DNA from: Herpetosiphon aurantiacus DSM 785
Lineage (GTDB): Bacteria; Chloroflexota; Chloroflexia; Chloroflexales; Herpetosiphonaceae
Direction: 5' to 3'
NCBI GenBank assembly: GCA_000018565.1
Contig: CP000875.1
Location: forward strand, 2,619,199 to 2,683,198
Length of the DNA: 64,000 nucleotides
A program made the position numbers and the translations under genes. Under the pieces are notes generated by a model, which saw only the letters and a list, made by a program, of their open reading frames with translations, ran no database searches and had not been told where the DNA came from. Shown piece by piece: positions 3,055-30,453 of the stretch (position 1 is its first letter; each line of letters starts with the position of its first letter).

Positions 3055-3094
3055 GCGTTTGCGTCCTTCTGCACCTATAGTCTGATGAGTCGAT

Positions 3095-3331
3095 TTAATT
3101 GGTATGCACTGTATAGTCACCATCGTGCTGGGGTGGTTGCACAGCGTGCGCGATGTGTTCCAACCCATGGGTAAGCGGTGCATCATAGGCGAGATAGCCA
3201 CAGGCCGTCATTTCGGCAATGGTTAATGATGCGAGCGTTTGACGATACTGGTGCAGCGAAATTTGCCGCTCAGTACACAACTGAAGCAACCCGGTTTCTA
3301 GGGCTTGAAATAACACAGTGATGGTATCCAT
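3095..3331 (-). CDS. Small hypothetical protein in the Zn-type importer operon
   Basis: A 78-residue soluble protein that I do not recognise. It is supported by an excellent ribosome binding site (AGGAGG, 5 bases before the ATG) and by its position 40 bases upstream of the importer ATPase gene on the same strand. The sequence is mostly helical with a His-containing C-terminus (GLEHIAHAVQPPQHDGDYTVHTN). His residues near the end could bind metal, but this is speculation. Confidence 0.6.
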   Translation of the reverse strand: MDTITVLFQALETGLLQLCTERQISLHQYRQTLASLTIAEMTACGYLAYDAPLTHGLEHIAHAVQPPQHDGDYTVHTN

Positions 3332-4699: not shown

Positions 4700-5485
4700 C
4701 TAGCCTCCTTCGTGGCGATGACTTAAGGGAAATAACGCCAGCTGAATACGATTGGTAACGGGATGGCGTTGAATAACCGCATTGACCAAAAAAATATCAC
4801 GCAACCAGTGCGGCGTGAGCACCTGTTCTGGTGTGCCCTCGGCAACGATCGTTCCTGCCGACAGCACATACAATCGATCGCAATAGGCTGCGGCAAGATT
4901 AAGATCGTGGACAGTGACCAACGTTGTGATGCCAAGGCTGCGCACGAGTTCGAGGATGTCAAGCTGATAATGAATGTCCAAATGGTTTGTTGGTTCATCC
5001 AACACCAACAATTGCGGTTCTTGGGCTAAAGCCCGCGCAATCAACACCCGCTGTTTTTCACCACCAGAAAGCGTATTGAATGGGCGATTGGCACAATCGA
5101 GCATCTGCACCCGCGCTAATGCCGTTGTCGTCACCTGCCAATCATGGTCGGTATCACCAGCAAAAAAGCCTTTATGGGGGGTTCGACCCATCTGGACCAT
5201 TTTGGCAACCGTAAAGGCCACATCGTGGGTGCTTTCTTGGACAACCGCAGCAGTCTGGCGGGCACTTGTCCGTGGCGACATTTGCCACACATCGTCGTCA
5301 CCAAGCTGCACAAAGCCCGCACTGGGGCGCAACATGCGATAGACCGTCCGTAAAATCGTTGATTTGCCACTGCCGTTTGGCCCAACCAAACCCACAATTT
5401 CACCAGGCTGAACAGCTAAATCAATATTGGAGACAATCTGACGACTGCTCACCGAGACGGCGACGTGGTGAATTGTGAGCTTCAT
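4700..5485 (-). CDS. Siderophore/cobalamin-type ABC transporter ATP-binding protein (FecE/BtuD-like)
   Basis: A 261-residue ABC ATPase of the iron-chelate/B12 class. Walker A is GPNGSGKST, the signature LSGGEKQR, Walker B LLVLDEPTNHLD, and the switch region VTVHDLNLAA is typical of FecE/BtuD proteins. It powers the FecCD permease encoded just upstream, whose stop overlaps this ATG by four bases. The end of the gene carries the ribosome binding site for the DJ-1 gene. The cargo (ferric siderophore, haem or cobalamin) cannot be told from sequence. No cobalamin riboswitch is visible upstream of the operon. Confidence 0.9.
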   Translation of the reverse strand: MKLTIHHVAVSVSSRQIVSNIDLAVQPGEIVGLVGPNGSGKSTILRTVYRMLRPSAGFVQLGDDDVWQMSPRTSARQTAAVVQESTHDVAFTVAKMVQMGRTPHKGFFAGDTDHDWQVTTTALARVQMLDCANRPFNTLSGGEKQRVLIARALAQEPQLLVLDEPTNHLDIHYQLDILELVRSLGITTLVTVHDLNLAAAYCDRLYVLSAGTIVAEGTPEQVLTPHWLRDIFLVNAVIQRHPVTNRIQLALFPLSHRHEGG

Positions 5486-6564
5486 CCGACACCTCCCGAA
5501 CGCTGTCGCATAAGCCAGATAAAAAAGGGTCCTCCAATCATGGCAGTCACAATACCAACGGGCAGTTCTTGGGGTGCGATCACGATTCGCCCAATCAAAT
5601 CAACCAGCACCATATACACCCCTCCCAACAAGGCACTGGTTGGCAAGACATAGCGATGATCCACGCCAACCAACAGGCGGACAATATGCGGTATCATCAA
5701 GCCGACAAATCCAATCGCTCCACTCATGGCAACGACTGTTCCCACCATCAACGAACTCAGCACAAACAGCTGTATCCGAAACCGATGAAGATTCACCCCT
5801 AGACTGATGGCCGTTTCGTCGCCAGCTAAGACCGCATTCAGTGAACGAAATTGCAGCATTAAAAGTCCTGTCGAGCCCAACACCGCAAGGCTGGGAAGAC
5901 CAAGATACTGCCACTTTGCGCCGCCCAAATTTCCGGCCAACCAGGTTAATACCGCTGCGGCACCACCATAGGGCGTAGTTGAGCGCAACACGAGATAGCT
6001 GGTCATCGCTGAGAGCACATAGCCCAACGACACCCCTGCCAAAACCAGGCGTGTTGGGATAACACGACCCGATTGCTGTGCCAAGGCATAGACCACAACC
6101 ATGGTCAGCATGGCCCCACCGAATGCCGCGAACGACAGGGATAATCCGCCAATAGCAGCAGTACCAAGGGTGAGCACTGCAACCGCTGCCACGGATGCGC
6201 CCGAGGAAACACCAAACAGATACGGATCGGCAAGAGGATTTCGCACCATGGCTTGGAGGGCTGTCCCACTGACTGATAGTGCCGCACCAACAATGACGGC
6301 TAATAACACCCGCGGCAGGCGAAATTGCCACACAATCTGGTCTTGCGTGGGAGTCCATGTCACGGAAACTGTGTTCGGCATCAGGTGGTTGAGAATAATC
6401 TTGGCAACGATCGGCACGGGCACTGAAACCGAGCCAATAGCAACACCAAGCAAAATGACCCCAATCAACATGAGCGTGAGTACCACCAGCAACCCCCCAA
6501 TGGCGGGAATTGCTGGTGGTACGCGCGGTGACGATTGTGGGTCATGGGAATGACGCACGATCAC
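5482..6564 (-). CDS. FecCD-family ABC transporter permease
   Basis: A 360-residue membrane protein of the FecCD/BtuC family (PF01032), with about nine to ten membrane segments. Diagnostic stretches are RLPRVLLAVIVGAALSVSG, ALQAMVRNPLADPYLFGVSSGA and GAIGFVGLMIPHIVRLLVG. It would move iron-chelate or cobalamin across the membrane. The first ~30 residues are a hydrophilic N-terminus, slightly longer than usual. It is coupled on both sides by four-base ATGA overlaps, with the binding protein upstream and the ATPase downstream. Confidence 0.92.
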   Translation of the reverse strand: MIVRHSHDPQSSPRVPPAIPAIGGLLVVLTLMLIGVILLGVAIGSVSVPVPIVAKIILNHLMPNTVSVTWTPTQDQIVWQFRLPRVLLAVIVGAALSVSGTALQAMVRNPLADPYLFGVSSGASVAAVAVLTLGTAAIGGLSLSFAAFGGAMLTMVVVYALAQQSGRVIPTRLVLAGVSLGYVLSAMTSYLVLRSTTPYGGAAAVLTWLAGNLGGAKWQYLGLPSLAVLGSTGLLMLQFRSLNAVLAGDETAISLGVNLHRFRIQLFVLSSLMVGTVVAMSGAIGFVGLMIPHIVRLLVGVDHRYVLPTSALLGGVYMVLVDLIGRIVIAPQELPVGIVTAMIGGPFFIWLMRQRSGGVG

Positions 6565-7592
6565 TCGAATACCTCTGGGTGCAGCGCCCGAGCAATTTGC
6601 TCAAGGCCATCAATAATGCGAATACTGGCTTCGGTATTAATCGTGGGAATAGGTATCAACCGATTATTTTGGACTGCTGGGATGGTCGGAAAGGTTGTTT
6701 TGAGATACGACTCCAGCATTGCGGCATCCTGACCAGGAAATGTCCCCAGCAAAATGACATCGGGTTGCGCCGCCGCAAATTCTTCGGCACTCACTTGAAA
6801 AACATCCTGATCAAAGACATTTTTTCCGCCAGCTCGCACAATCAAATCGCCCCAGACTCCACCCGAGAGCACGTTGAGCGGGCCTTCTCCCCCGGTGTAG
6901 AACAGAACGTTCACAGGTGAAACCCCAACCATCCGTTGTTCAATCGCGGCTTGACGGGACTGAAGGTCGGTGATAATCGCATTAGCTCGTTCCGACACCC
7001 CAAAAATCGCCCCCAAGTTCGCAAGATCAGTATAGACTTGCTCAAGACGTTTGCTTCCTGCATCAGCCATCGTACAGGCATTGTTGGAATAGACCTGTGC
7101 CCCAGCGGCTTCCAATTCAGCGACCGTGGCATACCCTGAATTGCTATCGAATGCAAAGCCTTCGAGTTGTTCCGAGATAACGAAATCAGGATTTTCGGCA
7201 AGCGTCACTTCTTTGACCGGCCATTGCATCGCCGTCCCGATTTGTTTGAGGGTCGCGGCTTCGGCCTGAAGATTTGCGGGATAGTCATCGTAATTGCCAC
7301 CAACCGCAACAATGCGGTCACCTAAACCTAAGGCAAGCAGCATTTCCGTTGGTGGTTGCCAGAGACTAATTATCCGCTCTGGCGCTTTCGCAAAGGTAAG
7401 TTTCCGCCCACAGTTTTCAATCGTGACAGGGTACCCTGCCGATGCTGGAGCAGTGGTGGTACTGATCGTTGCGGTACTCGTTGATGGATTCGTTGGTTGA
7501 ACCGCATCAGGGGTCTGGGTGGTAAGGGTTGTCCCACAAGCAGTGATGATCAGCAAGACACCAATCATGGGTGCGAAACAATGTTTTAACAT
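6561..7592 (-). CDS. Iron-chelate/cobalamin-type substrate-binding lipoprotein (class III binding protein)
   Basis: A 343-residue extracytoplasmic binding protein (PF01497 type). The N-terminus is a lipoprotein signal ending LLIITAC (Cys19), followed by a Thr/Pro-rich linker. The domain shows PERIISLWQPPTEMLLALGLGDRIVAVGG near residue 90, typical of class III binding proteins for siderophores and B12. It delivers the ligand to the FecCD permease encoded immediately downstream. The ATG at 7592 is preceded by AAAGAG. A hairpin lies in the leader at 7625-7647. Confidence 0.9.
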   Translation of the reverse strand: MLKHCFAPMIGVLLIITACGTTLTTQTPDAVQPTNPSTSTATISTTTAPASAGYPVTIENCGRKLTFAKAPERIISLWQPPTEMLLALGLGDRIVAVGGNYDDYPANLQAEAATLKQIGTAMQWPVKEVTLAENPDFVISEQLEGFAFDSNSGYATVAELEAAGAQVYSNNACTMADAGSKRLEQVYTDLANLGAIFGVSERANAIITDLQSRQAAIEQRMVGVSPVNVLFYTGGEGPLNVLSGGVWGDLIVRAGGKNVFDQDVFQVSAEEFAAAQPDVILLGTFPGQDAAMLESYLKTTFPTIPAVQNNRLIPIPTINTEASIRIIDGLEQIARALHPEVFE

Positions 7593-8166: not shown

Positions 8167-8275
8167 TGTTCGATTCAGCTACGCTATCAAAAGTTAACCC
8201 TGTATAACCACCTGCCACATAGGTCAATCCTTCAATCGTTCGATTCAGCTACGCTATCAGAGGTTAACCCTTTAT
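8167..8275. repeat. Tandem 70-bp imperfect duplication at the 3' end of the methyltransferase gene
   Basis: A block beginning GTTCGATTCAGCTACGCTAT recurs exactly 70 bp apart (8168 and 8238) and continues through a GTTAACCCT-TAT segment with three changes. The second copy contains the stop codon of the methyltransferase gene at 8264; the first lies just outside it. It looks like a short tandem duplication of the gene end. Confidence 0.7.
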
Positions 8276-9073
8276 CCCAACAACCCCAAATCCAGTAATT
8301 GCACTGAAGAAAACGCCCAAGCGACTGGCAGTTTGGCAATAGCGCTGCCAGTCGAGCGCTGCCTCGCGGGTTATTTGGGCCTGTTGCAGCAGATCATTAA
8401 TCGCCGATTGGATACCGAACAGTTGATCAGCAAGGGTTGGATTGGTTTCAATAATTGTCATCGCGGTTGTTTGCACCTGTTGCAACCCCGAAAGCTGGAA
8501 TAAACGCGGCAGTTGACGGCCCGACCAGCCATTGCGCACCCGATCCGTAATCCGTTGCACAACCTGGCGTAGCAGCGTTTTATCAGGGCCATCAATTAAA
8601 AGGCTTTCCCAATCGGTGTCACTGACCACAATGCTGCCGCCAACTTTGGTTACCCGCAGCATTTCGGCTAAGGCCTGCTTGCGATCTTCCAAATGTTGAA
8701 AAACCCGATCGGCTCGACAGCTATCGAAATAGCCATCAGGAAAGGGCAACGCATCAATCGAGCCATGTTCAAAGCGTACATTTAGCCCGTGGTTGGCAGG
8801 GTGATTTTGGGCGCTTGTCAGCATAGCTTCGCTATTATCAAGCCCAATCACCAGCCCTTCAGCGCCAACTCGCTGGGCGATCGAGCGAGCATCGTTGCCC
8901 GCCCCACAGCCTACATCAAGCACCCGCTGGCCTAGTTGTAGATCCAGTAATTCAAAGGTCATGGCCTTATATTGCGCCACTTGGTCAAGCTCGCTGACCG
9001 TGTTGAGATAGCCAATACAATGGGTGGGGGCAGCACTGGTTTGATCGATTGCGCCCCAATCGGTAGTTGTCAT
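8264..9073 (-). CDS. SAM-dependent methyltransferase, last gene of the NRPS operon
   Basis: A 269-residue class I methyltransferase (Methyltransf_11/25 type). Motif I is RVLDVGCGAGNDARS near residue 50; the acidic residue ending strand 2 is in GLDNSEAML; a post-I segment reads GSIDALPFPDGYFDSCRADRVFQHL. It lies 8 bases after the acylase gene, and its ribosome binding site (AGGAA) is inside or beside that gene's end, so it belongs to the same transcript. It could methylate the peptide product (O-, N- or carboxyl). The target is unknown. The far C-terminus coincides with a short tandem duplication. Confidence 0.88.
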   Translation of the reverse strand: MTTTDWGAIDQTSAAPTHCIGYLNTVSELDQVAQYKAMTFELLDLQLGQRVLDVGCGAGNDARSIAQRVGAEGLVIGLDNSEAMLTSAQNHPANHGLNVRFEHGSIDALPFPDGYFDSCRADRVFQHLEDRKQALAEMLRVTKVGGSIVVSDTDWESLLIDGPDKTLLRQVVQRITDRVRNGWSGRQLPRLFQLSGLQQVQTTAMTIIETNPTLADQLFGIQSAINDLLQQAQITREAALDWQRYCQTASRLGVFFSAITGFGVVGIKG

Positions 9074-9081
9074 GCTGGTTC

Positions 9082-11514
9082 CTATTCTGGCTGAAGCCTC
9101 AGCGTCGTTTGGGTTTCAGCGGGCTGTGGCAAGCGCATTGGCAGATATTCGCCACGTTGCCATGGTTCAAGTAAATCGTCAAAATGGGTGCTCAGGATAT
9201 GCGCCGATTGCCCAGGGGTTTGGATATAGACGGCGTTATCAAGCGCACCAAGATCCACAATTTGGCGATAGATCGGCCCACCATATTGCACAAAATCAAT
9301 CCGATCGGTTGGACCAGCATTGATCGTCGCGCTATCACCGCCATTGCCAATTGTATGACCAAACCAGCTATCAAGCGGTTCGATGCCAGCGAATACGGCA
9401 TGTGGGAAGACTGCTTGGTGGATTGAATCCCAACGCCATTGCTCAATCTCGCCGCCATGCTCAGCGCTTAATTCGGCCAGCGTTTGCTCCAACACCCGAC
9501 CGATCAATAATGCGCACGATTCAGGCTCGGCAGTTGTTTGATCATCACACCACGCCTGATCGTTGGTTTGCAAGATGGTGGGAATCGCCAGCGCAAAAAA
9601 TTGTTCATGATAGCTATACGAGCGCCAGAGTTGCTCACCTATATCATCAACTACAATTGCCCGTGCCAAGCGCAAGTACCATGTTTCGTAGATTGCCGCC
9701 GCCGCACTATCACTTGTCAAGCTTGCATCCCAGTTTTTGAGCAATTCCAAGGCTTGCAAGGCTTGGGGATTAGTGGTTTGGGCCGTGAGCAATAACGGTA
9801 AAAGCTGTTGAGCTTGCAATGAGCGTTGATCAGCCTGCATTCGTTGCATATCAGCTTGATCAAAGGTTGGCTTTTCACTGAGCAATTGCCAAATTCGCTG
9901 AGCACGATAGGCTGGAGCCCAACTGCGGCTAATCAACAAGGGATAATCATCGGCAACTGCCTGATTATTGGCCGAAACCAGCATGCCACTTGGCGGATTA
10001 TAGCTAAATGGCAATTCATCAAACTCACTCAAGCGTAACCACGCTGCCTGCTGATTCCAACCTTCAACGGGCAAGCGGCCATCACCGTTAGCGCGAATTG
10101 GCAAGCGGCCAGCGATTTGCAAGCCAATATTGTTATTGACATCGGCATAGCTAAAGTTTTGCATAGGGGCTTGGTACCAGGCCAAAGCTGCGCGAAATGT
10201 CTGCCAATCGCTGGCAAGATTCAATTGCAACAAAGCAGTGATGGTTGTATCAGTCGGTTCGAGCGCAGTCCAACGCAACGCAAGCACTTGGTTGGTGGCT
10301 TGTAGTTCAGCATCAACATCGGAGATAATCGGCCCATTCCGACTACTGCGTACTTGCAGCATGTGATCTGGTTGATCTTTAACTTTAATTATTTCATCGC
10401 GTCGAGTCAACGGATAAGGTTTGCCCAGATATTCAGCGTTGCCTGCTTGATCAAGCCGTTCGATCACCAAATCTTGCACGTCAACCCCGGTATTCGTCAG
10501 CCCCCAGGCAATCGAACGATTATGCCCAATCATCACTGCCGGAACACCAGGTAAGGTTGCACCAATTACGTCAAGTTCACCGGCTTGAATCTGGGCTAGA
10601 TACCAAATTGAGGGTGCTTGGGCCGCAAGATGAGGGTCATTTGCCAGCAATGGCTTACCACTGCTAGTATGTTGGCCTGCCAAAACCCAACTATTGCTGC
10701 CTACATAACTCCCAGCAAGCTTAAATTGCTGATGCAACTGCTCAACTCGGGTCAACAGGCTTGTACAACTGTCGGCATTAGCTCCACAGAAGTTAGAGCT
10801 GGCCATCGTCGGAGCAGGAGCCGAACCAGCGCTATAGGTTGCATCGGGCAAAATCAATGGATCGTCGGGGCTAGCCGCTGGCAACAAAAAAGCTGCGCGT
10901 TCTGGCCCAACCTGAGCAATGAGCTGGCTATACAAAACCTCAGCACTCCAATTGGCCCCAAGGCTCCAAGCCTGTAACTTCCCAGTCAACAGCACATCGA
11001 TTGGCTGCCACAAACGTGGGCTAAACCCCAGAATAGTAAATTCTGGCGGCAAATCCATGCCATCGTGATGAATAATAAATTGATTGATTCCCGCAATATA
11101 AGCTTGAATTGCCTGTTGACTAGCTGGATCAAGCGCGTTCCAAGCGTTTACAGCAGCATCAACCAAGCCTAAAGCTCGCAAAAATCGATCAGTTTCGATC
11201 GTTGCTGGGCCAAGCACCTCCGAAAGCTCGCCCCGTGCCAAGCGGCGCTGAAACTCCAGCTGCCACAGCCGATCTTGGGCATGCACAAAGCCTAATCCAA
11301 ACAAGCCATCATGATAATTGGCAGCCTGTATATGCGGCACTCCAGCTTGATCGCGCACAATTGTGACAGGTTGTTGAATCCCAGTCAGCTCAATTGTGCC
11401 GCTGGTTTGGGGCAACGACTGGCGTAAATACACATAGCCGCCAGTACCTGTGATCAAGCCAAGCACGAGCAAGCCCAACAAAATCCAGCGCGTAAATTTC
11501 CAAATTCGACGCAT
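9082..11514 (-). CDS. Penicillin-acylase family (Ntn) hydrolase, membrane-anchored
   Basis: An 810-residue precursor of the penicillin amidase family (PF01804). Residues 10-30 form an N-terminal membrane anchor, and the small-subunit region has QPVTIVRDQAGVPHIQA and GLGFVHAQDRLWQLEFQRRLARGELSE. Autocleavage would occur before the Ser of GSNSWVLAG (about residue 276), which becomes the N-terminal nucleophile. Downstream family motifs are LLANDPHLAAQAPSIWY and GHNRSIAWGLTNTGVD. The anchor places the enzyme outside the cytoplasmic membrane. In pyoverdine maturation the related PvdQ removes the fatty acyl group from an exported precursor. Here, next to an FAAL-primed NRPS line, a similar deacylation is likely but not proven. 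Confidence 0.9.
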   Translation of the reverse strand: MRRIWKFTRWILLGLLVLGLITGTGGYVYLRQSLPQTSGTIELTGIQQPVTIVRDQAGVPHIQAANYHDGLFGLGFVHAQDRLWQLEFQRRLARGELSEVLGPATIETDRFLRALGLVDAAVNAWNALDPASQQAIQAYIAGINQFIIHHDGMDLPPEFTILGFSPRLWQPIDVLLTGKLQAWSLGANWSAEVLYSQLIAQVGPERAAFLLPAASPDDPLILPDATYSAGSAPAPTMASSNFCGANADSCTSLLTRVEQLHQQFKLAGSYVGSNSWVLAGQHTSSGKPLLANDPHLAAQAPSIWYLAQIQAGELDVIGATLPGVPAVMIGHNRSIAWGLTNTGVDVQDLVIERLDQAGNAEYLGKPYPLTRRDEIIKVKDQPDHMLQVRSSRNGPIISDVDAELQATNQVLALRWTALEPTDTTITALLQLNLASDWQTFRAALAWYQAPMQNFSYADVNNNIGLQIAGRLPIRANGDGRLPVEGWNQQAAWLRLSEFDELPFSYNPPSGMLVSANNQAVADDYPLLISRSWAPAYRAQRIWQLLSEKPTFDQADMQRMQADQRSLQAQQLLPLLLTAQTTNPQALQALELLKNWDASLTSDSAAAAIYETWYLRLARAIVVDDIGEQLWRSYSYHEQFFALAIPTILQTNDQAWCDDQTTAEPESCALLIGRVLEQTLAELSAEHGGEIEQWRWDSIHQAVFPHAVFAGIEPLDSWFGHTIGNGGDSATINAGPTDRIDFVQYGGPIYRQIVDLGALDNAVYIQTPGQSAHILSTHFDDLLEPWQRGEYLPMRLPQPAETQTTLRLQPE

Positions 11515-11621: not shown

Positions 11622-13193
11622 TTAAAAACGTAGTTGTGCCAACCATTGTTGAAGGCTTGTTCGATCAAGCGTTGGTAGCATAACCTCAGTTGCTGCAAGC
11701 GCAGCTTGCATCGCAGTTTGATCATAGGCTTGCTCAGCATGTGGGCCATTCACTGCCGCTTGCGCTAAGGTTAACAGTGATTGCAGAGAAGTATTTGGTA
11801 CATCCTTGGTTTGCCGCTGTAATTGCAGCATCCACTGATCAAGATCAACCTGTTCAATGGGATACCCAAGTTCTTGCATCCAATTAATCAGTTGATTCCA
11901 AGCGATATGCTGTTGGTTGACCAAATGATACGTTTGCCCTTGGCCGCTTGGCTGCAACGAAAGCGCCACCATCGCTTGGGCCACATAAGCAACCGGAGTA
12001 ATTTCAGCCAACCGATCAACCAACGGCGCACGACCTAACTGCAAACAGCCTTGGAGCAACCGATACAAACCATCACCACGATTCCACTGACCCGTTTGAG
12101 TATCCCAACCAATGCGGCCTGGCCGATAACAATTAATCGGAATACCGCGGGCGCGGGCTTGCAGCAACAGGTGTTCAGCAACCCACTTGGTTTGGGCATA
12201 GCCAGTGATGAGGCCATCTGGTGTTGATGGCAGTTCTTGCTCATAGCGTACTGTAGCAGCGGTGTTTGCTGGAAAAACACTGGTCGTAGAACTAAAGTGC
12301 ATTGATTTAAGCTTGACTTGACTTGCCAAACGCAGCAAATCAATGGTTGCTTGCACATTACTAGCTTTGAGTTGGGCATATGAATGCGCCAGATTTACGA
12401 CTGCGCCATTGTGATAAATCCGATCAATAGTTTGAGCCAACATCTGCCAGTCTGCCGCAGTCATGCCTAACTGCGGAAGGCTCAGATCCCCAAGCATCAC
12501 GATGAGCCGTGAAGCAAAGGCTGGCTCCCAACGATTGGCATGTTCAAGCTGTTGGCGAATTTTGGCAAAAGCTTGGGTCTCATCAGCGGCTCGTACCACA
12601 CAATAGATGTGGGCAGATGTTTGTGTGAGCAATTCAGCCAACAAATATGGCCCCAAAAAGCCAGTTGCCCCGGTCAACAGGATTGATTGGGGCATGTGCT
12701 CGTGATAGGGAGCTAGACCAAGCGGATTGATTGCTGGATCAAGCACAATTTCATCGAGCAAATTACGCTGATCGGTGATAGCGACACCATGAGCAAGTTG
12801 GGCAATCGTTGGTTGCTCAAATAATTGACGCGCTGTCAGCCGAATGCCAGCCTGATTGGCTCGCGCGGCCACCTGAATACTAGTAATCGAATCGCCACCC
12901 AAGGCAAAGAAATTATCGTGAATCCCCACCTGTGGCACACGCAAGGTTTGCTGCCAAATGTAAGCAAGCTGCTGTTCAGTGGTAGTGCGCGGTGCAACAT
13001 AGTGCTCAGGATCACTATATTGTTGAAAATCGATAGTTGGCAGGGCTGCCCGATCAACCTTGCCATTCGGCAAACGTGGAATCTGCCTAAGTTCGACAAA
13101 TGCCGTTGGTAGCATTGACTCAGGCAAATGGTGCTGAAGATACTCGCGCAACGGCAGTGCCGCAGCACTATTAACCTTATTGATTAAATTCAT
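11622..13193 (-). CDS. NRPS fragment: A-domain C-terminal subdomain - PCP - terminal reductase
   Basis: A 523-residue protein that begins inside an adenylation domain. Residues 15-50 carry the A-domain lid ending with motif A10 (LPNGKVDRAAL, Lys about 43), but there is no A core. A carrier domain follows (NFFALGGDSITS, Ser about 101), then a thioester reductase domain with the NAD(P)H motif GATGFLGPYLL near 176, the SST segment, and catalytic Tyr and Lys in GYAQTKW near 330. The reductase would release the chain as an aldehyde or alcohol. The missing A core is the end of the NRPS encoded at 14283-20066; the hydroxylase gene lies between. The ATG has CGGAG 9 bases upstream, so it is separately translated. 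Confidence 0.9.
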   Translation of the reverse strand: MNLINKVNSAAALPLREYLQHHLPESMLPTAFVELRQIPRLPNGKVDRAALPTIDFQQYSDPEHYVAPRTTTEQQLAYIWQQTLRVPQVGIHDNFFALGGDSITSIQVAARANQAGIRLTARQLFEQPTIAQLAHGVAITDQRNLLDEIVLDPAINPLGLAPYHEHMPQSILLTGATGFLGPYLLAELLTQTSAHIYCVVRAADETQAFAKIRQQLEHANRWEPAFASRLIVMLGDLSLPQLGMTAADWQMLAQTIDRIYHNGAVVNLAHSYAQLKASNVQATIDLLRLASQVKLKSMHFSSTTSVFPANTAATVRYEQELPSTPDGLITGYAQTKWVAEHLLLQARARGIPINCYRPGRIGWDTQTGQWNRGDGLYRLLQGCLQLGRAPLVDRLAEITPVAYVAQAMVALSLQPSGQGQTYHLVNQQHIAWNQLINWMQELGYPIEQVDLDQWMLQLQRQTKDVPNTSLQSLLTLAQAAVNGPHAEQAYDQTAMQAALAATEVMLPTLDRTSLQQWLAQLRF

Positions 13194-13205: not shown

Positions 13206-14264
13206 TTAACCATTGATTGCATTAGCAACATCGCCATGGGTGGTTGGATGAGCCATACCCACCAGCACCTGACGGCTGCCCGTAAATGGTGAACGCGCAT
13301 GAGCCACCAACATATTGTCGAGCATCAGCACATCGCCACGCTCCCACGGAAACATAATCGTTTCGGCGTGGTAGGCTGCCCGCAGCGTTTCCATTACCTC
13401 TGGCTCAATTGGGCTGCCATCGCCGTAATAGCTGTTGTTTGGCAATTGTTCGGGCTTAAATTGGGCCAATAAGCCATCGCGAATCGGTGCTTCAAGTGTA
13501 CTCACATGGAAAAAAGTTGCATGATTAAACCAAACGAGATCGCCAGTAATGGGATGGGTTGCCACAGCTCGACCCATGCGGCGGGTTTGCAAATGGTCGT
13601 TTTCGCCCCAGATTGCCTGCATCCCAACTCGCTCGCAATAGGCATCGACCTCAGCCCGATCGGCAGTTTGAAAGACATTGCGCCAATCAAGACCAACGCC
13701 GCCGCCAAAGTTGCGCACATACAAAATGCCGCGATCAATAAAACGTTGGCGCAAGGCTGGGTCAAGCCGTTGATAAACCTTGCGCACATCAGCAATCGGG
13801 GTTTCGCCGCCCGTGGCCGGCTCGATCGTACAGCAGAAGAAAATTTGGCGCGGCCAGGCTTGTTGATACGAATTTTCGTTATGCAGAAAAATCGTTTGAT
13901 CAGCCGGATGCTCGGTCGAAGTGTAGATATTGCCTTGCACTTGGCTGCGCGGCGACGAGCGCTCACGATATTCCAGCAACTCACCTGAGGCAGCGCTTAT
14001 CACCGTCTCGAAAGCTTGGGCGGTATCTACGCCAAAACCACGGAATAAAACCCCGCCGTAATGATGCAATTGCGTCGTCAGCCACGCTAAGTTATTGGTT
14101 GCCCATTGCGCTAAATCAACCCCGGCAACGCTTGGCCGCACCACCAAAGGCAAGTTTTGGCCCTCACTTAAAAAGCTCGTCGTCACCAACGCTTGTTGAT
14201 CGGTCGCTAAGGCTTGGCGTTTAATGCTGCCAAGTTGTTTTTTCAAACCAGATTTTGCTTCCAC
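13206..14264 (-). CDS. TauD/SyrP-like Fe(II)/2-oxoglutarate hydroxylase
   Basis: A 352-residue TauD-superfamily dioxygenase of the SyrP/AsnO-like, NRPS-associated group. Iron ligands are visible as His-x-Glu in FLHNENSYQ (about residues 128-130) and a distal His in LVAHARSPFTGSRQV (about 322); the downstream Arg should bind 2-oxoglutarate. The short Lys/Arg-rich N-terminus (LKKQLGSIKRQAL) resembles that of other NRPS hydroxylases. Such enzymes beta-hydroxylate Asp or Asn on a carrier domain. The GTG at 14264 has AGGAG 8 bases upstream, and the gene ends 12 bases before the next start. It sits between the two halves of a split A domain. The likeliest substrate is the Asx residue of the upstream NRPS. 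Confidence 0.9.
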   Translation of the reverse strand: MEAKSGLKKQLGSIKRQALATDQQALVTTSFLSEGQNLPLVVRPSVAGVDLAQWATNNLAWLTTQLHHYGGVLFRGFGVDTAQAFETVISAASGELLEYRERSSPRSQVQGNIYTSTEHPADQTIFLHNENSYQQAWPRQIFFCCTIEPATGGETPIADVRKVYQRLDPALRQRFIDRGILYVRNFGGGVGLDWRNVFQTADRAEVDAYCERVGMQAIWGENDHLQTRRMGRAVATHPITGDLVWFNHATFFHVSTLEAPIRDGLLAQFKPEQLPNNSYYGDGSPIEPEVMETLRAAYHAETIMFPWERGDVLMLDNMLVAHARSPFTGSRQVLVGMAHPTTHGDVANAING

Positions 14265-14282: not shown

Positions 14283-17200
14283 TTAATTGCGTGGCTCGAT
14301 ATAGGCCACCAAGCGTAATTGACCATGCTGATCGGGCTGAGCGGTAACCACAGCCTCGCGTAAGGCGGGGTGTTGGCGCAGCAGTTGGGCAATTTCTTCA
14401 AGCTCAATCCGAAAACCGCGAATTTTGACCTGTTGATCGATGCGACCTAAGAATTCAAGCTGACCATCGGGCAACCAACGGGCTAAATCGCCAGTGCGAT
14501 ACAAGCGCTGGCCTGGCTGTTCGGCCCATGGGTCGGGCATAAACCGCTCGGCGGTCAGCGCTGGTTGTTGCCAATAGCCGCGACTAATACCCGCACCAGC
14601 AATCAACAATTCGCCAGCAACTCCAATTGGCACAGGCTGCAAGCTTGGATCAACTACATAGGCTTGGATCGTGGCAATCGGGCCGCCAATTGAGATCGGT
14701 TGTTGCGGTACTAGTTTGGCAACGCTTGCCCAAACCGTCGCCTCGGTTGGGCCATATTCGTTGTATAGGGCACACGTTGACAGTTGTTGATAATGGCGAT
14801 TGACCAAGCTGGTGGTACAGGCCTCGCCCGCGACCACGACCACGCGCAAACTAGCTAATTGGCTTAATTCGGCTTGTTCCAACAATACCGCGTACAACGA
14901 CGGAATTGCCAAGGTATGGCTAATCTGATGATGTTCGACCATGCTGGCTAGCGCTAGAACATCGTGGCGTTGCGCTTGATCGGGCAGTACCAAACAGCCA
15001 GCTTGGCTCAGTGTCCAGAAAATTCCAGCGATCGAGCTATCGAAGGCATACGATGAAAGCAATAAAAAGCTCGTCAGCGGCTCGCGATAGGCAAGCGTTC
15101 GGGCAAACGTGGAGCTATGCAGATTGGCATGACTGACCACCACACCCTTGGGGCGGCCTGTCGAACCAGAGGTATAGATCAGATAGGCGGCCTGCGCCGG
15201 ATGAATCGTGACTGGCACAAATGGCGCTTGGGCAGAATCTAAATCAGCAAGGCCTAAACAGGCAGAGTTTGCAGGTAGGTTTTGCCAGATGTCTGGCTGT
15301 TGGCAAATCAAGAGCTTCAATTCAGCATCGCTCGCCATCAATTCAAGCCGCTCACGTGGGTAGTTGGGGTCAAGTGGCACATAAGCAGCCCCTGTTTTGA
15401 GCACCGCCAAAATCGCCACAATCAAGCTGGTTGAATGCTCAAGGCTGATACCAACCCGGGTTTCTGCACCAATCCCCTGCGTTTGTAAATAGCCCGCCAA
15501 AGCCGTTGCGCGTTGCTCAAGCTCAGCATAGCTCAACGCCCCATCATAGGCTTGGATGGCTTGGGCAGTTGGCTGCTGTTGAGCCACTTCGGCCAGCCAA
15601 CCAACAAGATCAGGCGACGATTGTGCAACTTCGGTGCGATTAAATCCAAGCAATAGGTGTTGCTCAGTATCACTCAACAATGGCATAGCGCGATAATCTG
15701 CCGCAGGGTCGGCAACCATCGCGGTCAGACAGACTTGATAATAGCCTGCAATCGCTTCGATTTGGGCATTGGTCAAAATTCGCCCATCACAGGTCAAACT
15801 CAAGTTAATGTCATTCGTAAAGGGATCGATGCGGAAGTTGGCAACTAATGGAAAACTCGAAACTTCGTAGGGCAGCACATCAAGCAACTCCAGCTCACTG
15901 ATGTTTTGCAAGGCTTGGAAGATATGGTAGTGGGTGAAGTAGAACAAACTCTCCGACCAAGCCAAACCGCCGTTGTGGCGTTGCAACTCGGCAGTTGGGT
16001 AGCGCCGATGCTCCAGACTGGCACGTTCAGCAGCAAAGGTCTGCATAATAAGTTCACGCCACGTTGGCTGATTCAGCTGCATTCGTAGAGGAATACTATT
16101 GATAAACAAGCCCAAAACCCGTTCACCATCAAGGGTTTCAGGCCGCCCACTCGAAACCATGCTGGTCACTACATCGAACTGACCAGTCAGGATGCTAATC
16201 ACCCGTAAATGCGCTGCCAACAGCACATCTTTAATTGGCACGGCAAGCTGGCGAGCCAAGGCTTTAAGTGCTTGCGAAAGCTCAGCACTAATTGCAACTG
16301 GTTGTGATTGGCTGGTGTTTGAACGCGGCACATTCGGCCAGCGCGGCAAGCGCATCGGGCTGGCTTGGGCCAAATGGTCAGCCCAAAATTGCTGGGTCGC
16401 AGGATTCTGAATTGCTGCTTGTTCTAGCCGTACAAATTCGTGATAGCCAATTTGAGGCGCAACAAGGCTACTGGTTTGGCCTTGCAAGCGCCGCGCATAA
16501 TCGCTAAACAGCTCAGTCAGCATTATCGCATCGCTCCAGCCATCGATCACCGCATGGTGAAAGCTCAGCGAAAATTGCAATTCATCATCAGCCCGCACAT
16601 GCACTTGGAACCGCAATAACGGCAGGCTACTTGGCTCAAAACCGCGCTGCTTTTCGGCGGCGATCCAAGCTTCAATTAATTGATCGTGCTGTTCAACAGG
16701 CTGGTTGCGCAGATCGATAATATTCAACAGGTTTGCGCCTTGGGCATGCACCACTTGCAACGGCTCGCTGGCGCTGGTCAGATCAAAACTAGTGCGTAGC
16801 GCTGGATGCCGCACCACTAAATCATCGACGATCAGTTGCAACAACGCCAAATCGAGCACGACCCGCATCCGATAGCTAAAAATATCGTGGTACAGCGCTT
16901 GTTCAGGGTTGAATTGGTTGTGGAAAATCATGCCACCCTGCAACTTGGCAATCGGGAAGGCATCAACAATAGTATTTGGGAGCAAGGCATGATCAGCAGG
17001 GCTAATCAAACTGAAGGGTGTGTATTCGATTATTTGATTTTCTGTAGAGCAGACCATAGTTTGAACCAAACTACGAATCGTCGGCTGATTGAACAGCATT
17101 TCAACACTCAGATTTAAGCCGCGCTGTTTGGCTTGGGCCACCACCTGAATGCTGCGAATTGAATTGCCGCCTAATGCAAAAAAATTATCATCAATCCCAA

Positions 17201-20066
17201 TCATTGGGTGCTCAAGCACCTGTTCCCAAATGGCTGCCAAAATTTCTTCTTCAGGGGTCGTTGGGGCAACATAATTGTTTATAGCGGTTGGTTCGGGCAA
17301 GGCCGCCCGATCAATTTTGCCATTCGCGGTCAACGGCCATTGCTCAACCAACACAACGTTGCTTGGTAACATGTACTGTGGCAGGAATTGTTGGGCATAT
17401 TTCAACACCACTTGTTCACTCAATTGCGTGGAGTCGGCATCGGGTGTGGCTTGGAGATAGGCGACCAAGCGTTGATCGTCGCCTGTGCCACGCAGCAAGA
17501 CCAGTGCTGAAGCGACCATTGGCAAGCGTTGCAGCACTGCCTCAATCTCGCCCAGCTCAATTCGATAGCCACGCAATTTGATTTGCGTATCACGCCGCCC
17601 AAGATATTCCAGCGTTCCATCCCAGGCCCAACACGCCAAATCGCCAGTGCGATACAGCCGTGCGCCAGCGATTCCACTCAGGTTATCAGGTACAAACTGG
17701 GCAGCGGTCAGATCAGGGCGCTGATTATAACCGCGGGCAACCCCAACTCCACCAATATACAGCTCACCAACAACCCCAAATGGCACAGGTTGCAAGCGCT
17801 CATCAAGCACATACAAACGCATATTGGCAATTGGCAAACCAATCGAAACCGCGCCAGCAGCCGAATCAGTGGTTTGGGTTTGGTAGATCGAACAGCCAAC
17901 CACTGTTTCAGTTGGGCCATATTCGTTGAACAAGCGGGTTTCAGGAGCGTGGGTGCGCCATGGAGCCAACGTAGTTGCATCAAGCGCCTCACCGCCAATC
18001 ACCAAGGCCCTACTGCGTTGAGCCAAATCAGCACTAGTGATCAATTGATTCAGCACCGCCAAATGCGCTGGTGTCAGTTTGAGCAAACTCAGATCAGTGC
18101 TGGCTCGCAGTGCTTGGGCTAGCGTTTCAACCCCAGCATTGCTTGGCAATAAACGCACGGTTTGGCCAGCACACAAGGGCACAAGCAAACTGGTTACGGT
18201 CAAATCGAAGGCTAATGGCGAATGCACCAACGAACCTGTACCAGCCGCCAAATCGTAGGCCGTGATCGCCCATTGCACATAGTTGCTCAAACCAGCGTGG
18301 CTGACCATCACACCCTTGGGCTGGCCGGTCGAGCCAGAGGTATACAGCAGATAGGCCAATTGCGCAGGCTGATAGTTCAAACGTGGCGCGGCACTCGCTT
18401 GATCAAATTGCAACTGATCGACCGCCAATTGGGCAACGCTACACGGCAAACTAGGCATGAGGCTGGTTTGGCTCAACACCAACTGAATCGCCGCATCAGC
18501 AAGAATATACTGAATCCGCTCGGCGGGATACTCTGGCTCTAAGGGCACATAGGCCGCGCCAGCCTTGAGACACGCCAACAAGGCCACGACCATCAGCGGC
18601 GAGCGCTCAAGATACAAGCCAACCCGCTGCTCGGGTTGAATACCGTGTTGGATTAATTGTTGGGCCAGTTGGTTGGCTTGCTGAGCCAACTCGGCATAAC
18701 TCAGTTGCTCTGCACCAAATTGCACAGCAATTGCTTGCGGATTGTGTAGTGCCTGCTGATCAATCAGATCGTGAATTGGCGTTGCAGCAAATGGCCGATC
18801 GGTTGCATTGACCTGCTTAGTCAATAATGTTTGGGTATTGCTCCCAATGATTGGCAGTTGCCCAAAGGTCGGGTTGGATTGTTGCCCAAGCCAAACCAGC
18901 ATTGTGATTAAGCTCTCAGCCAAGGCCTCGGCAACCTCAGAGCGCATGCTAGTTGCATCGTAATCTAAGGTCAATTGCCAGCTTGTAGCTTGCTCGATCA
19001 GGCTTAATTTACAGCGAAACAGATCAGTATGGCTGGTCAGGTGTTCAAGCTGATAGTGCGCCGCTGTTTCCCAACGATAATGGGCAAATGCCAACGCTAA
19101 CGGCTGATCCAACGCAAGTTGCTGCCAACTGAAATACTCTTGGAACTGCGCTAAATCGGCTAGCTGTTGGGCTAGCGTGGTTATAGCCTCGGCGATTGGC
19201 TGATCGGCAGCAAGTTCGTTTGGTAACAATGGCAGATAGCGCTCAAACAAGCCTTGGGCATTGGCCAACTCTGCATACGAACGGCCATCGCAGGCCAGCG
19301 CCAACGCTGGCGTTTGCCCATAATTGCTGCGGCTGAGCAACCAACGCCAAAGGCTGAGCACCGTACTCGCTAAATCAACATTATGTTGAGTAAACCAAGC
19401 ATTAATCGCGATACTGCTGCTTGCAGGAAGGTTAAGCTTGATCCGAGTGGGCTGGGTTTGGGTCAAGCGTGCAAAGCCCCGCAGATCATGCGGTGCTTGC
19501 TTAATCGCCTGCGTTTGCCAAAATGCCCGTTCAGCGGCGCTTTCGGCTGCTTCGAGCAAGCCATTTTGCCATTCAGCAGCGTCAATATACTGCATCAGCT
19601 CATCGCTTGCGCTCAATTCATGCGGAGCCAACGCGGCTTGGGTCAATTCTTCGAGCAGCAATCGGGCACTAGTGGCATCGCCAACCAAGGCCGCTAGCCA
19701 CAACCCAAGCCATTGCTGTTGGCCATGCTCAAATAACGTAATCTGCATCAAACCAGCATCAGCTGGCGCTGCAAGCTCAGCAATCTGATGCGATTCGGCT
19801 ATTTGCTGCTGATGCAAGACCACTGTTTGGTTGTGCAGCACTTGGGCTGGTAGCTTTAGCCCAGCGATCTGCTCGAAACGGGTACGCAACGCCTCATGGC
19901 GCTCGATCACAACATTCAAGCCAGCTTGCCAACGTTCATAACGAAGCGGAGTGGTTAACTCAACCAGCAGCCATGTGCCCAAGGGTTGCTGGCTTTGTGG
20001 TTGAACCAACCATGTATGGGTTTGTTGCGGCGATAGCCGAAAATGCTCAACTTCATGTTGCTGCAT
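14283..20066 (-). CDS. NRPS: C-like (interface-type) - A(Asn/Asp-type) - PCP - C - A core
   Basis: A 1927-residue synthetase. It starts with a C-like domain whose HHxxxDG motif is replaced by LAALVGDATS (about 129). Next comes an A domain (YTSGSTGQPKG about 579, NGKIDR about 915) whose pocket residues read by eye give DLTKVGEVG, close to Asn codes. Then a PCP (GGNSIRS about 967) and a C domain with intact SFHHAVIDGWS (about 1172). The second A domain is complete through A8 (QVKIRGFRIELEE about 1882) but stops at LVAYIEPRN without the A10 lysine; its code reads DSALVAEVW, which I cannot assign. No thioesterase or epimerase is present. The missing A lid is in the gene at 11622-13193. Confidence 0.93.
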   Translation of the reverse strand: MQQHEVEHFRLSPQQTHTWLVQPQSQQPLGTWLLVELTTPLRYERWQAGLNVVIERHEALRTRFEQIAGLKLPAQVLHNQTVVLHQQQIAESHQIAELAAPADAGLMQITLFEHGQQQWLGLWLAALVGDATSARLLLEELTQAALAPHELSASDELMQYIDAAEWQNGLLEAAESAAERAFWQTQAIKQAPHDLRGFARLTQTQPTRIKLNLPASSSIAINAWFTQHNVDLASTVLSLWRWLLSRSNYGQTPALALACDGRSYAELANAQGLFERYLPLLPNELAADQPIAEAITTLAQQLADLAQFQEYFSWQQLALDQPLALAFAHYRWETAAHYQLEHLTSHTDLFRCKLSLIEQATSWQLTLDYDATSMRSEVAEALAESLITMLVWLGQQSNPTFGQLPIIGSNTQTLLTKQVNATDRPFAATPIHDLIDQQALHNPQAIAVQFGAEQLSYAELAQQANQLAQQLIQHGIQPEQRVGLYLERSPLMVVALLACLKAGAAYVPLEPEYPAERIQYILADAAIQLVLSQTSLMPSLPCSVAQLAVDQLQFDQASAAPRLNYQPAQLAYLLYTSGSTGQPKGVMVSHAGLSNYVQWAITAYDLAAGTGSLVHSPLAFDLTVTSLLVPLCAGQTVRLLPSNAGVETLAQALRASTDLSLLKLTPAHLAVLNQLITSADLAQRSRALVIGGEALDATTLAPWRTHAPETRLFNEYGPTETVVGCSIYQTQTTDSAAGAVSIGLPIANMRLYVLDERLQPVPFGVVGELYIGGVGVARGYNQRPDLTAAQFVPDNLSGIAGARLYRTGDLACWAWDGTLEYLGRRDTQIKLRGYRIELGEIEAVLQRLPMVASALVLLRGTGDDQRLVAYLQATPDADSTQLSEQVVLKYAQQFLPQYMLPSNVVLVEQWPLTANGKIDRAALPEPTAINNYVAPTTPEEEILAAIWEQVLEHPMIGIDDNFFALGGNSIRSIQVVAQAKQRGLNLSVEMLFNQPTIRSLVQTMVCSTENQIIEYTPFSLISPADHALLPNTIVDAFPIAKLQGGMIFHNQFNPEQALYHDIFSYRMRVVLDLALLQLIVDDLVVRHPALRTSFDLTSASEPLQVVHAQGANLLNIIDLRNQPVEQHDQLIEAWIAAEKQRGFEPSSLPLLRFQVHVRADDELQFSLSFHHAVIDGWSDAIMLTELFSDYARRLQGQTSSLVAPQIGYHEFVRLEQAAIQNPATQQFWADHLAQASPMRLPRWPNVPRSNTSQSQPVAISAELSQALKALARQLAVPIKDVLLAAHLRVISILTGQFDVVTSMVSSGRPETLDGERVLGLFINSIPLRMQLNQPTWRELIMQTFAAERASLEHRRYPTAELQRHNGGLAWSESLFYFTHYHIFQALQNISELELLDVLPYEVSSFPLVANFRIDPFTNDINLSLTCDGRILTNAQIEAIAGYYQVCLTAMVADPAADYRAMPLLSDTEQHLLLGFNRTEVAQSSPDLVGWLAEVAQQQPTAQAIQAYDGALSYAELEQRATALAGYLQTQGIGAETRVGISLEHSTSLIVAILAVLKTGAAYVPLDPNYPRERLELMASDAELKLLICQQPDIWQNLPANSACLGLADLDSAQAPFVPVTIHPAQAAYLIYTSGSTGRPKGVVVSHANLHSSTFARTLAYREPLTSFLLLSSYAFDSSIAGIFWTLSQAGCLVLPDQAQRHDVLALASMVEHHQISHTLAIPSLYAVLLEQAELSQLASLRVVVVAGEACTTSLVNRHYQQLSTCALYNEYGPTEATVWASVAKLVPQQPISIGGPIATIQAYVVDPSLQPVPIGVAGELLIAGAGISRGYWQQPALTAERFMPDPWAEQPGQRLYRTGDLARWLPDGQLEFLGRIDQQVKIRGFRIELEEIAQLLRQHPALREAVVTAQPDQHGQLRLVAYIEPRN

Positions 20067-20078
20067 ACAATCATCCTT

Positions 20079-21593
20079 CTATTGGGTTGGCTCGGTGCTC
20101 GACCGTCGCCGATTCAGGATTAATTTGGAACGATTTGCTGCCTTGCGTTGCTCCAGCCGTTGCTGTTGAAGCTCGCGCTCGTGGCTTTGGCAACGCTGCA
20201 CCGCAACCGCAAGCGTGATCGTCGGTTCAAGCACGATCAACTGAAGCACCAGCTGATAGCGCTCAAGTAATTGCTGCATGCGCTGCGCTGCGAAAATATC
20301 GGTGTTGTAATCAAGGGTTCCCGCTAAGCCTGCATGCTCTTCCCAAAGATTGATCAGCAAATCAAATTTGGCAGTGTGCGGATCAAGATCCATGCGTTCA
20401 AGCTGCACACCTGCTAGTTGTAAGTTGGGCAAGGGCGTGTTTTGCAACACAAATTTGACCTGAAACAACGGCGTGCGGCTGGGGTCGTGGGCAACGTTCA
20501 ACCATTCGACAACTTGATCGAATGGCACATGTTGGTGGTCAAAGGCCGCTAATGTGAGCTGGCGGGTTTGTTGTAGGCTTGCTTGGAACGATTGATGCGG
20601 CTGAACTTGTTGACGTAGCACCAATTGATTAATGAAAAAGCCGATCAATTGATGGGTCTCAGGCTGTTGTCGCCCTGCAACATCAGTGCCAACCACTAAA
20701 TCAGTTTGCTCACTTAGCCAGTGTAAAAGCCAATAAAATGCCGTTAGCAAACTCATAAATAAGGTTGCGCTCTGGCTTTGACTAAGTTGCTTGAGTTGTT
20801 CGACCAACTCCCTCGGCAAGCGCCAAGCGATTTGTGCCCCCTGAAACGATTGAACAGCAGGTCGAGGATAGTCGGTTGGCAAGGCCAGAGTTGGTACATC
20901 GTGCAAGAGCTTCAGCCAAAAATCACGGCTGCTTTGGGTCAGCGTTGCTGGCTGTTGGGCTTGCCAACAGGCATAATCGCCATAGTGAATTGCCAGCGGA
21001 GCAAGGTTTAACGCTGCGCCTGTGGCAAAATGCGCATAGGCCAGCGCCAAATCGTGCATCAACACACCTAACGACCAACCATCAGCAATAATGTGATGCA
21101 GCATCAACCCTAAAACATGCTGCTCTGGAGCACAGCGCCACAACGCGGCACGCCATAACGGCGCGTGCTGCAAATCAAATGGTTGTCGGGCATAGTGGCG
21201 TAACTGAGTTTCAAGCTGGGTTTGATCAAGCTCAACCAACCCCAATTCTACCTGCCAAGGCTCGTGAATCTGTTGATATGCACCTTGGTTGTCAGGCTGA
21301 ATGCTGGTGCGTAGCACTTCATGGCGTTGGAGCAACCAACTCAGGCTCGTCGCCAAAGCAGCACGATCCAACGAACCGTTGATCATCAGCAAACAGGGCA
21401 TGATGTAGGTAGCCTGGCCTGGCCGCATTTGCTCAACCAGCCAAAGCCGTTGCTGTGCCAACGATAACGGCACCATTTGCGCAGGATCACGCGGCGTAAT
21501 CGCTGGCGTTGCTTGGCGTTGCAAGCGTAATTGTTCAAGCAAGGCGCGTTTTTCGGGCGAAAGCTGCGCCAAGCGTTGCTGGAGAGCATCCAT
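20079..21593 (-). CDS. Stand-alone NRPS condensation domain protein
   Basis: A 504-residue protein made of one condensation domain. It has an N-terminal docking-like helix (LQQRLAQLSPEKRALLEQLRL), the usual LSLAQQRLWLVEQ motif, an intact catalytic motif LMLHHIIADGWS (His about 169) and GTDVAGRQQPETHQLIGFFINQLVL. The C-terminus is a basic tail (KAANRSKLILNRRRSSTEP). By motif it is of the LCL type. It is encoded 12 bases after the first synthetase and 12 bases before the second, whose own N-terminal C-like domain lacks the catalytic His. It probably joins the Gly-PCP of the first synthetase to the Asx-PCP of the second, acting in trans. Confidence 0.9.
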   Translation of the reverse strand: MDALQQRLAQLSPEKRALLEQLRLQRQATPAITPRDPAQMVPLSLAQQRLWLVEQMRPGQATYIMPCLLMINGSLDRAALATSLSWLLQRHEVLRTSIQPDNQGAYQQIHEPWQVELGLVELDQTQLETQLRHYARQPFDLQHAPLWRAALWRCAPEQHVLGLMLHHIIADGWSLGVLMHDLALAYAHFATGAALNLAPLAIHYGDYACWQAQQPATLTQSSRDFWLKLLHDVPTLALPTDYPRPAVQSFQGAQIAWRLPRELVEQLKQLSQSQSATLFMSLLTAFYWLLHWLSEQTDLVVGTDVAGRQQPETHQLIGFFINQLVLRQQVQPHQSFQASLQQTRQLTLAAFDHQHVPFDQVVEWLNVAHDPSRTPLFQVKFVLQNTPLPNLQLAGVQLERMDLDPHTAKFDLLINLWEEHAGLAGTLDYNTDIFAAQRMQQLLERYQLVLQLIVLEPTITLAVAVQRCQSHERELQQQRLEQRKAANRSKLILNRRRSSTEPTQ

Positions 21594-30011: not shown

Positions 30012-30037
30012 TATCGCTTTCTGAAATCTATCATTCT

Positions 30038-30058
30038 GGAAGCATAGGGGAGGCTTCC
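30038..30058 (-). other. Short hairpin just upstream of the synthetase start
   Basis: GGAAGC (30038-30043) and GCTTCC (30053-30058) form a 6-bp stem about 27 bases before the proposed GTG start at 30011, in what would be the 5' untranslated leader. It could influence initiation at the non-ATG start. Support is limited to the pairing. Confidence 0.25.
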
Positions 30059-30135
30059 TAAAATACACACCTCGTCCAAGCGAGCATTCTAAACAGGTTT
30101 GAGGCCTAATGCAGTCGCAAATCAAACAATATTCT

Positions 30136-30237: not shown

Positions 30238-30453
30238 GTGCAAACAACAGATGACGATACAACAATCTATAACGTTGTGATCAATCACGAAGAACAATAC
30301 TCTATCTGGCCTGCCGAACGCGAAAACCCGCTGGGCTGGAGTAATGTTGGAGTGAGCGGCAATAAACAAACCTGTTTAGATCACATTAAAGCGGTTTGGA
30401 CTGATATGCGGCCATTAAGTTTACGCCAAGCGCTAGCCAACCAATCGGCTTAG
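30238..30453 (+). CDS. mbtH: MbtH-like protein
   Basis: A 71-residue MbtH family protein. The signature is complete: [19 protein letters not shown], then [15 protein letters not shown], including the conserved Trp residues that grip the A domain. MbtH-like proteins bind NRPS adenylation domains and are needed for their folding or activity, so this one probably serves the divergently encoded synthetases. The GTG at 30238 is preceded by AAGGGGG at good spacing; an ATG 12 bases in is out of frame. It is the first gene of the uptake operon. Confidence 0.93.

Follow-up and report, generated by a model that had tools for sequence, protein, structure and literature searches.

A candidate maturation deacylase in the operon of a fatty acyl-AMP ligase-primed nonribosomal peptide line of Herpetosiphon aurantiacus

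The window, the whole stretch of 64,000 nucleotides of Herpetosiphon aurantiacus DSM 785 that was analysed (contig CP000875.1, positions 2,619,199 to 2,683,198), contains a minus-strand operon running from position 30125 to position 8264 in the order NRPS1, lone condensation (C) domain, NRPS2, TauD, TRE, acylase and methyltransferase. The intergenic gaps from the fatty acyl-AMP ligase (FAAL) gene to the methyltransferase gene are 12, 12, 18, 12, 107 and 8 bp, the 107 bp lying before the acylase gene. NRPS1 (21606..30125, minus strand), a nonribosomal peptide synthetase (NRPS) of 2839 aa, has the organization FAAL-ACP-C-A1(Thr)-T-C-A2(Gly)-T according to Pfam and its specificity codes. Its N terminus matched AMP-binding, PF23024 and PP-binding in Pfam, that is, a FAAL followed by an ACP, and among the solved relatives of this part are FadD32 and a fatty acyl-adenylate ligase; the two top-ranking ones carry the names polyketide synthase and saframycin synthetase. 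Among the best 25 of 106 NCBIfam families, the FAAL models stayed under their cut-offs on NRPS1. The real start of NRPS1 probably lies downstream of the TTG given in the ORF list; similarity to G003, one of six genomes of the genus compared, starts at residue 6-11, and FAAL matches set in near residue 50. At the place of HHxxxDG, the first C domain of NRPS1 (about residues 700-1140) reads QHTVVDL and the second (about 1780-2220) HDTIFDG. The lone C domain (20079..21593, minus strand; Pfam and sequence) has an intact HHIIADG motif.

NRPS2 (14283..20066, minus strand) consists, by Pfam and codes, of a degenerate C-like (interface-type) domain, A3, T, C and the core of A4. The specificity codes obtained by alignment are DFWNIGMVHK for A1, DILQLGLIWK for A2, DLTKVGEVGK for A3 and DSALVAEVWK for A4. 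We take the first three to mean Thr, Gly and Asp/Asn, and the fourth is His-like, differing from the code compared by I to V. The Thr-Gly start proposed in the sequence-only reading agrees with the first two codes of NRPS1 as assigned here. The N-terminal domain of NRPS2 lacks HHxxxDG and has AALVGDA at that place; interface domains that partner beta-hydroxylases show such a loss. The only TauD gene of the window operon (13206..14264, minus strand; TauD/TfdA-family dioxygenase in Pfam) encodes a proposed beta-hydroxylase of Asp or His. It is followed by TRE (11622..13193, minus strand; Pfam and NCBIfam), with an A-domain tail (a9/a10), a carrier protein and a thioester reductase. The last gene, 8 bp past the acylase gene, encodes a SAM-dependent methyltransferase (8264..9073, minus strand; Pfam) and adjoins the acylase gene in all three species that have the cluster. 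IBH and TBH hydroxylase models are described in the accessible part of PMC12971057.

The acylase gene (9082..11514, minus strand) is an intact ORF with an ATG start and encodes a protein of 810 aa that belongs to the penicillin-amidase family (Ntn, S45), as judged from its translation, Pfam and a predicted structure. PF01804 spans residues 49-797 and scores 746 bits (cut-off 21.3). The predicted structure is confident (pLDDT 91) and has an N-terminal helix at residues 2-32, and the hydropathy peak of 1.82 lies at residue 10. This fits a protein that is predicted to be anchored in the membrane by its N terminus and to face outwards. In the structure comparison, the alignment opened with the predicted nucleophile Ser273, placed opposite residue 1 of the beta chain in both PvdQ and the cephalosporin acylases. 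Moreover, S273, H295 and R474 were invariant across 30 sequences and N453 was nearly so; the active-site roles of the His, Asn and Arg positions are assumed here. The PF01804 score, the predicted helix and the short gaps bear out the earlier description of a membrane-anchored penicillin-acylase-type enzyme within a FAAL-primed operon.

The nearest solved structure of the acylase is D-succinylase (Z = 39.5), followed by cephalosporin acylases (Z = 28-33), whereas PvdQ, of a different subfamily, reached a Z of about 23 over the beta chain. With the PvdQ equivalog model NF051460, the acylase reached 83.6 bits, far short of the cut-off of 950, and orthology to PvdQ was therefore rejected; the "related PvdQ" of the sequence-only reading stands at the level of the superfamily but not as a PvdQ equivalent. 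The closest characterised relatives, glutaryl-cephalosporin acylases and D-succinylase, are not long-chain deacylases, and this together with the remoteness of PvdQ would speak, at the level of sequence and structure comparison, against a role of the enzyme in removing a fatty acid. The rank of D-succinylase would rather suit an enzyme that acts on another amide, for example acyl-homoserine lactones of prey or acylated amino acids such as the N-succinyl forms, and that is co-regulated with the cluster but leaves its product untouched.

The distribution of the acylase within the genus does not favour this alternative. Orthologues of the acylase were found in 3 of the 6 genus genomes (G000, G003 and G005, with 100, 97 and 91%), TauD orthologues were found in the same three and in none of the other three, and FAAL matches at E 1e-60 were also confined to these three, with three candidates scored per genome. 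Since all three genomes with the cluster have the acylase and none of the three without it do, the enzyme is linked to the acyl-primed NRPS line, although the three cluster-bearing genomes of the six are closely related. Thus, the acylase tracks the TauD marker in all six genomes. A separate acylase paralogue with 47-48% identity is present in 6/6 genomes and could cover general duties; a plain housekeeping acylase that lies here by chance was rejected, as another copy exists elsewhere in each of the six. Across 400 genomes of the phylum, the acylase was matched at E 1e-100 or better in 136, but among the matches listed only G000, G003 and G005 exceeded 48% identity. FAAL matches were present in 39 of the 400, and among the matches listed, the 36 other FAAL-bearing genomes had no acylase within 20 kb of the FAAL, the nearest distance being about 35 kb (G027); in this control, at most two acylase and at most three FAAL candidates were scored per genome and many contigs were short. 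Within these limits, the control counts against a role of the acylase on the FAAL-primed peptide. In G005, another FAAL gene stands alone at a distance of about 4 kb from that for the acylase (G005:C1:407186-408841); it probably belongs to a different assembly line and has a likely orthologue near 2.16 Mb in the H. aurantiacus genome.

Outside the phylum control, 80 acylase relatives from public genomes were scanned together with at most 10 kb of flanking DNA, often less. NRPS genes were found in the flank of only one, in Bradyrhizobium sp. SRS-191, where the acylase gene is followed by FAAL-ACP and NRPS; in a second relative (L092), some 5 kb separate the acylase and a FAAL-like match. Most of the acylase family therefore does something else, and the 79 relatives with no NRPS in a flank of up to 10 kb count in favour of action on another amide. 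Between a8 and a9 of the first A domain of the Bradyrhizobium line (L094:14724-22322) lies an insert which, by eye, resembles a luciferase-like monooxygenase. Plasmids were compared for 60 of 170 FAAL-type records and 60 of 75 acylase records. Among the matches listed, 12 plasmid records had both, 9 of them within 11 kb and the other 3 at a distance of at least 47 kb; one renieramycin plasmid type accounts for three of the nine and S. cattleyicolor for two. A Methylomagnum plasmid has the acylase together with a SidA/PvdA monooxygenase, MbtH, TauD and FAAL-NRPS, a siderophore-type cluster. In the renieramycin plasmid record that was read, the acylase RenL is encoded beside RenK, which bears the FAAL-type match, and in the two S. 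cattleyicolor records (L131) a FAAL-ACP match, known from the match alone and without annotation, lies near the acylase. The B. japonicum USDA 123 plasmid and two further Streptomyces plasmid records, one of which was read, also have an acylase within 11 kb of a FAAL-type match.

In a tree of 33 rows, which leaves out 61 of 94 rows including CLUSTER_G005 and the long-branched L128 and L129, the NRPS-linked acylases required 4 changes, and their union in one clade was rejected (p-AU 4.8e-125); the Herpetosiphon acylase grouped there with mostly Chloroflexota acylases. The tree of all 94 rows required 6 changes for 9 NRPS-linked rows, with NRPS genes of the rows called "other" checked within a flank of up to 10 kb. 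For the acylases tested, a single origin of the NRPS linkage is thus rejected by the tree. The strongest argument for a function of deacylation in such lines is that acylases were recruited independently to the same kind of neighbourhood. That the family turns up beside FAAL-type lines in several phyla also stands against action on another amide, which we consider improbable overall. No paper was found that treats penicillin acylase, nonribosomal peptides and fatty acyl-AMP ligase together, and the word "acylase" does not occur in PMC3368417 or PMC6210107.

A second operon lies left of the window (L020, L023) and encodes an epimerase, four more A domains, a thioesterase, an aminotransferase and ABC exporter-type proteins. 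Its synthetases are p5 (A-tail-T-E-C-A5-T; L020:13942-18927) and, likewise left of the window, p4 (C-A6-T), p3 (A7-T-C-T) and p2 (C-A8-T-TE). The first C-like domain of p5 is a condensation domain in Pfam, but we take it to be E (epimerase) by its sequence. A5 and A8 have the code DIWELTADDK in common, presumably for Dab, and A6 and A7 are assumed to take Thr and Ala. The aminotransferase scored over the cut-offs for Dab transaminase (NF006733, 638.9 versus 438) and for the ectoine EctB model (TIGR02407, 593.7 versus 552.2), whereas the listed NCBIfam matches of the two ABC exporter-type proteins stayed under their cut-offs. DIWELTADDK was not found in the literature searched or in the main text of PMC12283262. 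The accessible part of the genome paper (PMC3368417) describes an "NRPS 3" with nine modules and a nonapeptide product; the eight A domains and the C-T pair of the two operons would fit this line. The FAAL-primed assembly line is thus larger than the sequence-only reading could see, the genes in the window making up only about half of it. Both operons are found in G003 and G005, about 142 kb apart in G005, and the second one has its exporter-type genes in all three cluster-bearing species.

Upstream of the window operon, on the opposite strand, lies a gene for an MbtH-like protein (30238..30453, plus strand; PF03621, 79.8 bits), which has a GTG start and, with 71 aa, was missed by the list of ORFs of 100 aa. 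It precedes divergent importer genes for a substrate-binding protein of a siderophore-type ABC importer (30550..31857, plus strand; PF01497 in Pfam), a BtuC/FecC-type permease (32006..33181, plus strand) and a FecE-type ATPase (33142..34170, plus strand), the latter two named from their best NCBIfam matches, which were under the cut-offs. A second siderophore-type importer (4700..7592, minus strand; ATPase, FecCD permease with its domain at 5482-6564, and binding protein in Pfam) found no counterpart above 60% identity in those stretches of G005 that flank the cluster, and it is uncertain whether it belongs to the cluster. Siderophore-type transporters with Peripla_BP_2 and FecCD domains thus stand beside the NRPS genes, and the plus-strand importer is present in all three species. 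TauD, the Asp/Asn and His-like codes, the Dab-type aminotransferase, MbtH and the importer form a metallophore setting, and given TauD, MbtH and the siderophore-type importers, the product of the cluster is probably a metallophore. By eye, ZnuABC-like transporter genes lie at 756-3201 of the window, between the two NRPS operons, with no match above 60% in the stretches around p5 of G005 and G003, and genes for a Fur-like regulator and for a CobW-like GTPase lie in L023. From these genes, a link of the cluster to zinc, in place of iron, or to another metal is possible. The intergenic DNA of the cluster contains conserved blocks, in which no metal-responsive operator was identified.

Taken together, a maturation deacylase that removes the fatty acid after export is the best reading of the acylase, and we hold it with moderate confidence. 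The FAAL would load a fatty acid onto the first carrier protein, and the line would build acyl-Thr-Gly-(beta-hydroxy)Asp-His, which the second operon would extend to a longer, probably Dab-containing peptide. ABC exporters would carry the lipopeptide out, the fatty acid possibly serving as a tether, and the Ntn-hydrolase acylase on the outer face of the cytoplasmic membrane would then hydrolyse the acyl-Thr amide. The freed water-soluble peptide with an N-terminal Thr would bind metal and be taken up by the neighbouring importer. We infer from the genes found together what the enzyme cleaves, that export precedes deacylation, that the lipid is a tether and that the peptide binds metal. A maturation deacylase had also been suggested by the sequence-only reading, and the genus linkage, the active-site positions, the predicted outward face, the exporters and the recurrence of the family at FAAL-type NRPS genes lend it weight. 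In outline the interpretation is likely, with a product from a longer line than that reading could see.

Its parallel to pyoverdine loses PvdQ orthology but keeps the exporters and metallophore hallmarks. According to the accessible part of PMC6206403, PvdQ of Pseudomonas is likewise an Ntn acylase outside the cytoplasm in a siderophore setting with an acyl-primed NRPS, and the pathway has Dab synthesis by PvdH and the ABC exporter PvdE, like the Dab-type aminotransferase and exporters here. In contrast, PvdQ is free in the periplasm, whereas a membrane anchor is predicted here, and pyoverdine has an N-terminal Glu instead of Thr. Potashchelin-type siderophores share the FAAL-ACP start, TauD hydroxylases, MbtH, nine amino acids and TE with the line described here, but these FAAL-primed beta-hydroxy-Asp siderophores keep their fatty acid (PMC7100376, accessible part) and so are a counter-example to the maturation reading; the word "acylase" does not occur in that paper.

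If, on the other hand, the lipopeptide is the active secreted compound, the acylase might inactivate molecules that remain at the membrane of the producer or come back to it, as proposed for GdnD (glidonins) and Tem25 (telomycin). These PvdQ-like or in-cluster acylases also act on nonribosomal lipopeptides (PMC10587159, accessible part). GdnD removes the chain from glidonins, which inhibit the producer when acylated but not when deacylated, and Tem25 is encoded inside the telomycin cluster (same source, to the same extent). The host is a predatory soil bacterium, and predation would suit such self-protection. GdnD, for which detoxification is the proposed role, is however encoded about 1 Mb from its own cluster (accessible part of PMC10587159), whereas the Herpetosiphon acylase gene is in mid-operon and in a metallophore context with importers, where the free peptide is a plausible end product. 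Self-protection appears rather unlikely. If the maturation reading is true, FAAL-primed peptides are finished by post-export deacylation outside Pseudomonas as well, a step that evolved repeatedly. A product predicted as a lipopeptide from its FAAL gene may then be misjudged where no acylase is sought, and the cluster offers a testable case of why a line would attach a lipid and later take it off.

The last A domain of the window operon is split. The A4 core of NRPS2 ends 35 codons past motif a8. When 30 loci of 45 matches in the same genome were read, 29 a8 motifs turned up at 28 loci, one of them probably counted twice; only that of A4 was followed by a stop after 35 codons, and past the other 28 the reading frame continued for 186 codons or more or up to where the locus ends, in several cases ahead of the tail motif. 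NRPS2 ends likewise in G003, and the full-length NRPS2 match ends there in G005. Two orphan tails are encoded on other genes, one in TRE with a reductase ending and one in p5 with an epimerase and extension; they are 68-73% identical where aligned, whereas the next tail in the genus has 53% among the matches listed. Thus, the domain is broken between a8 and a9 and its tail lies on another gene. In G005, the ORFs of at least 150 aa upstream of p5 are 155-440 aa long, too short for an NRPS. The A4 core might pair with either tail, giving a reduced tetrapeptide with TRE or a Dab-containing, thioesterase-released metallophore with p5; one acylase would unlipidate either, and the supply of tails would set the product. 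We put forward this two-ended line tentatively.

A reductase-released short product, an acyl-Thr-Gly-Asp-His aldehyde or alcohol, could in turn be the main substrate of the acylase. Pathways of the saframycin/renieramycin type contain a reductase and a FAAL, and TRE is present in 2 of the 3 species with the cluster, in both directly upstream of the acylase. RenL, of the same Pfam acylase family, is likewise encoded beside the FAAL-ACP match of RenK, but it has only 33% identity to the Herpetosiphon acylase, the genes are divergent and the product is unrelated; the pathway roles of RenK and RenL are assumed here, and no literature on RenL was found. In G003, a draft of about 90 contigs, p5 is present and the acylase gene follows the TauD gene after 13 bp, with no TRE gene between them and no full-length TRE match above 34% in the draft. 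The acylase is thus kept without the reductase gene there, which is a point for the maturation reading; it makes a main role on the reductase-released product very unlikely and, within this draft, led us to reject an acylase serving the reductase branch alone.

Corallorazine Crz1/Crz2 also has an A domain split between A8 and A9 over two genes, which was active once both proteins were mixed and is called the first experimental report of its kind (PMC11342130, accessible part). There, one tail partner is present instead of the two candidate tails for one core found here, and in a narrow literature search, two tails for one core were not mentioned in the accessible part of that paper. Use of both tails by one split core would illustrate how two products can come from a single line and would offer a natural splice point for engineering. 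A TauD paralogue with 53% identity also lies beside another NRPS (L022, G000:C1:2232341-2233351), whose adjoining A domain (L138) is not truncated.
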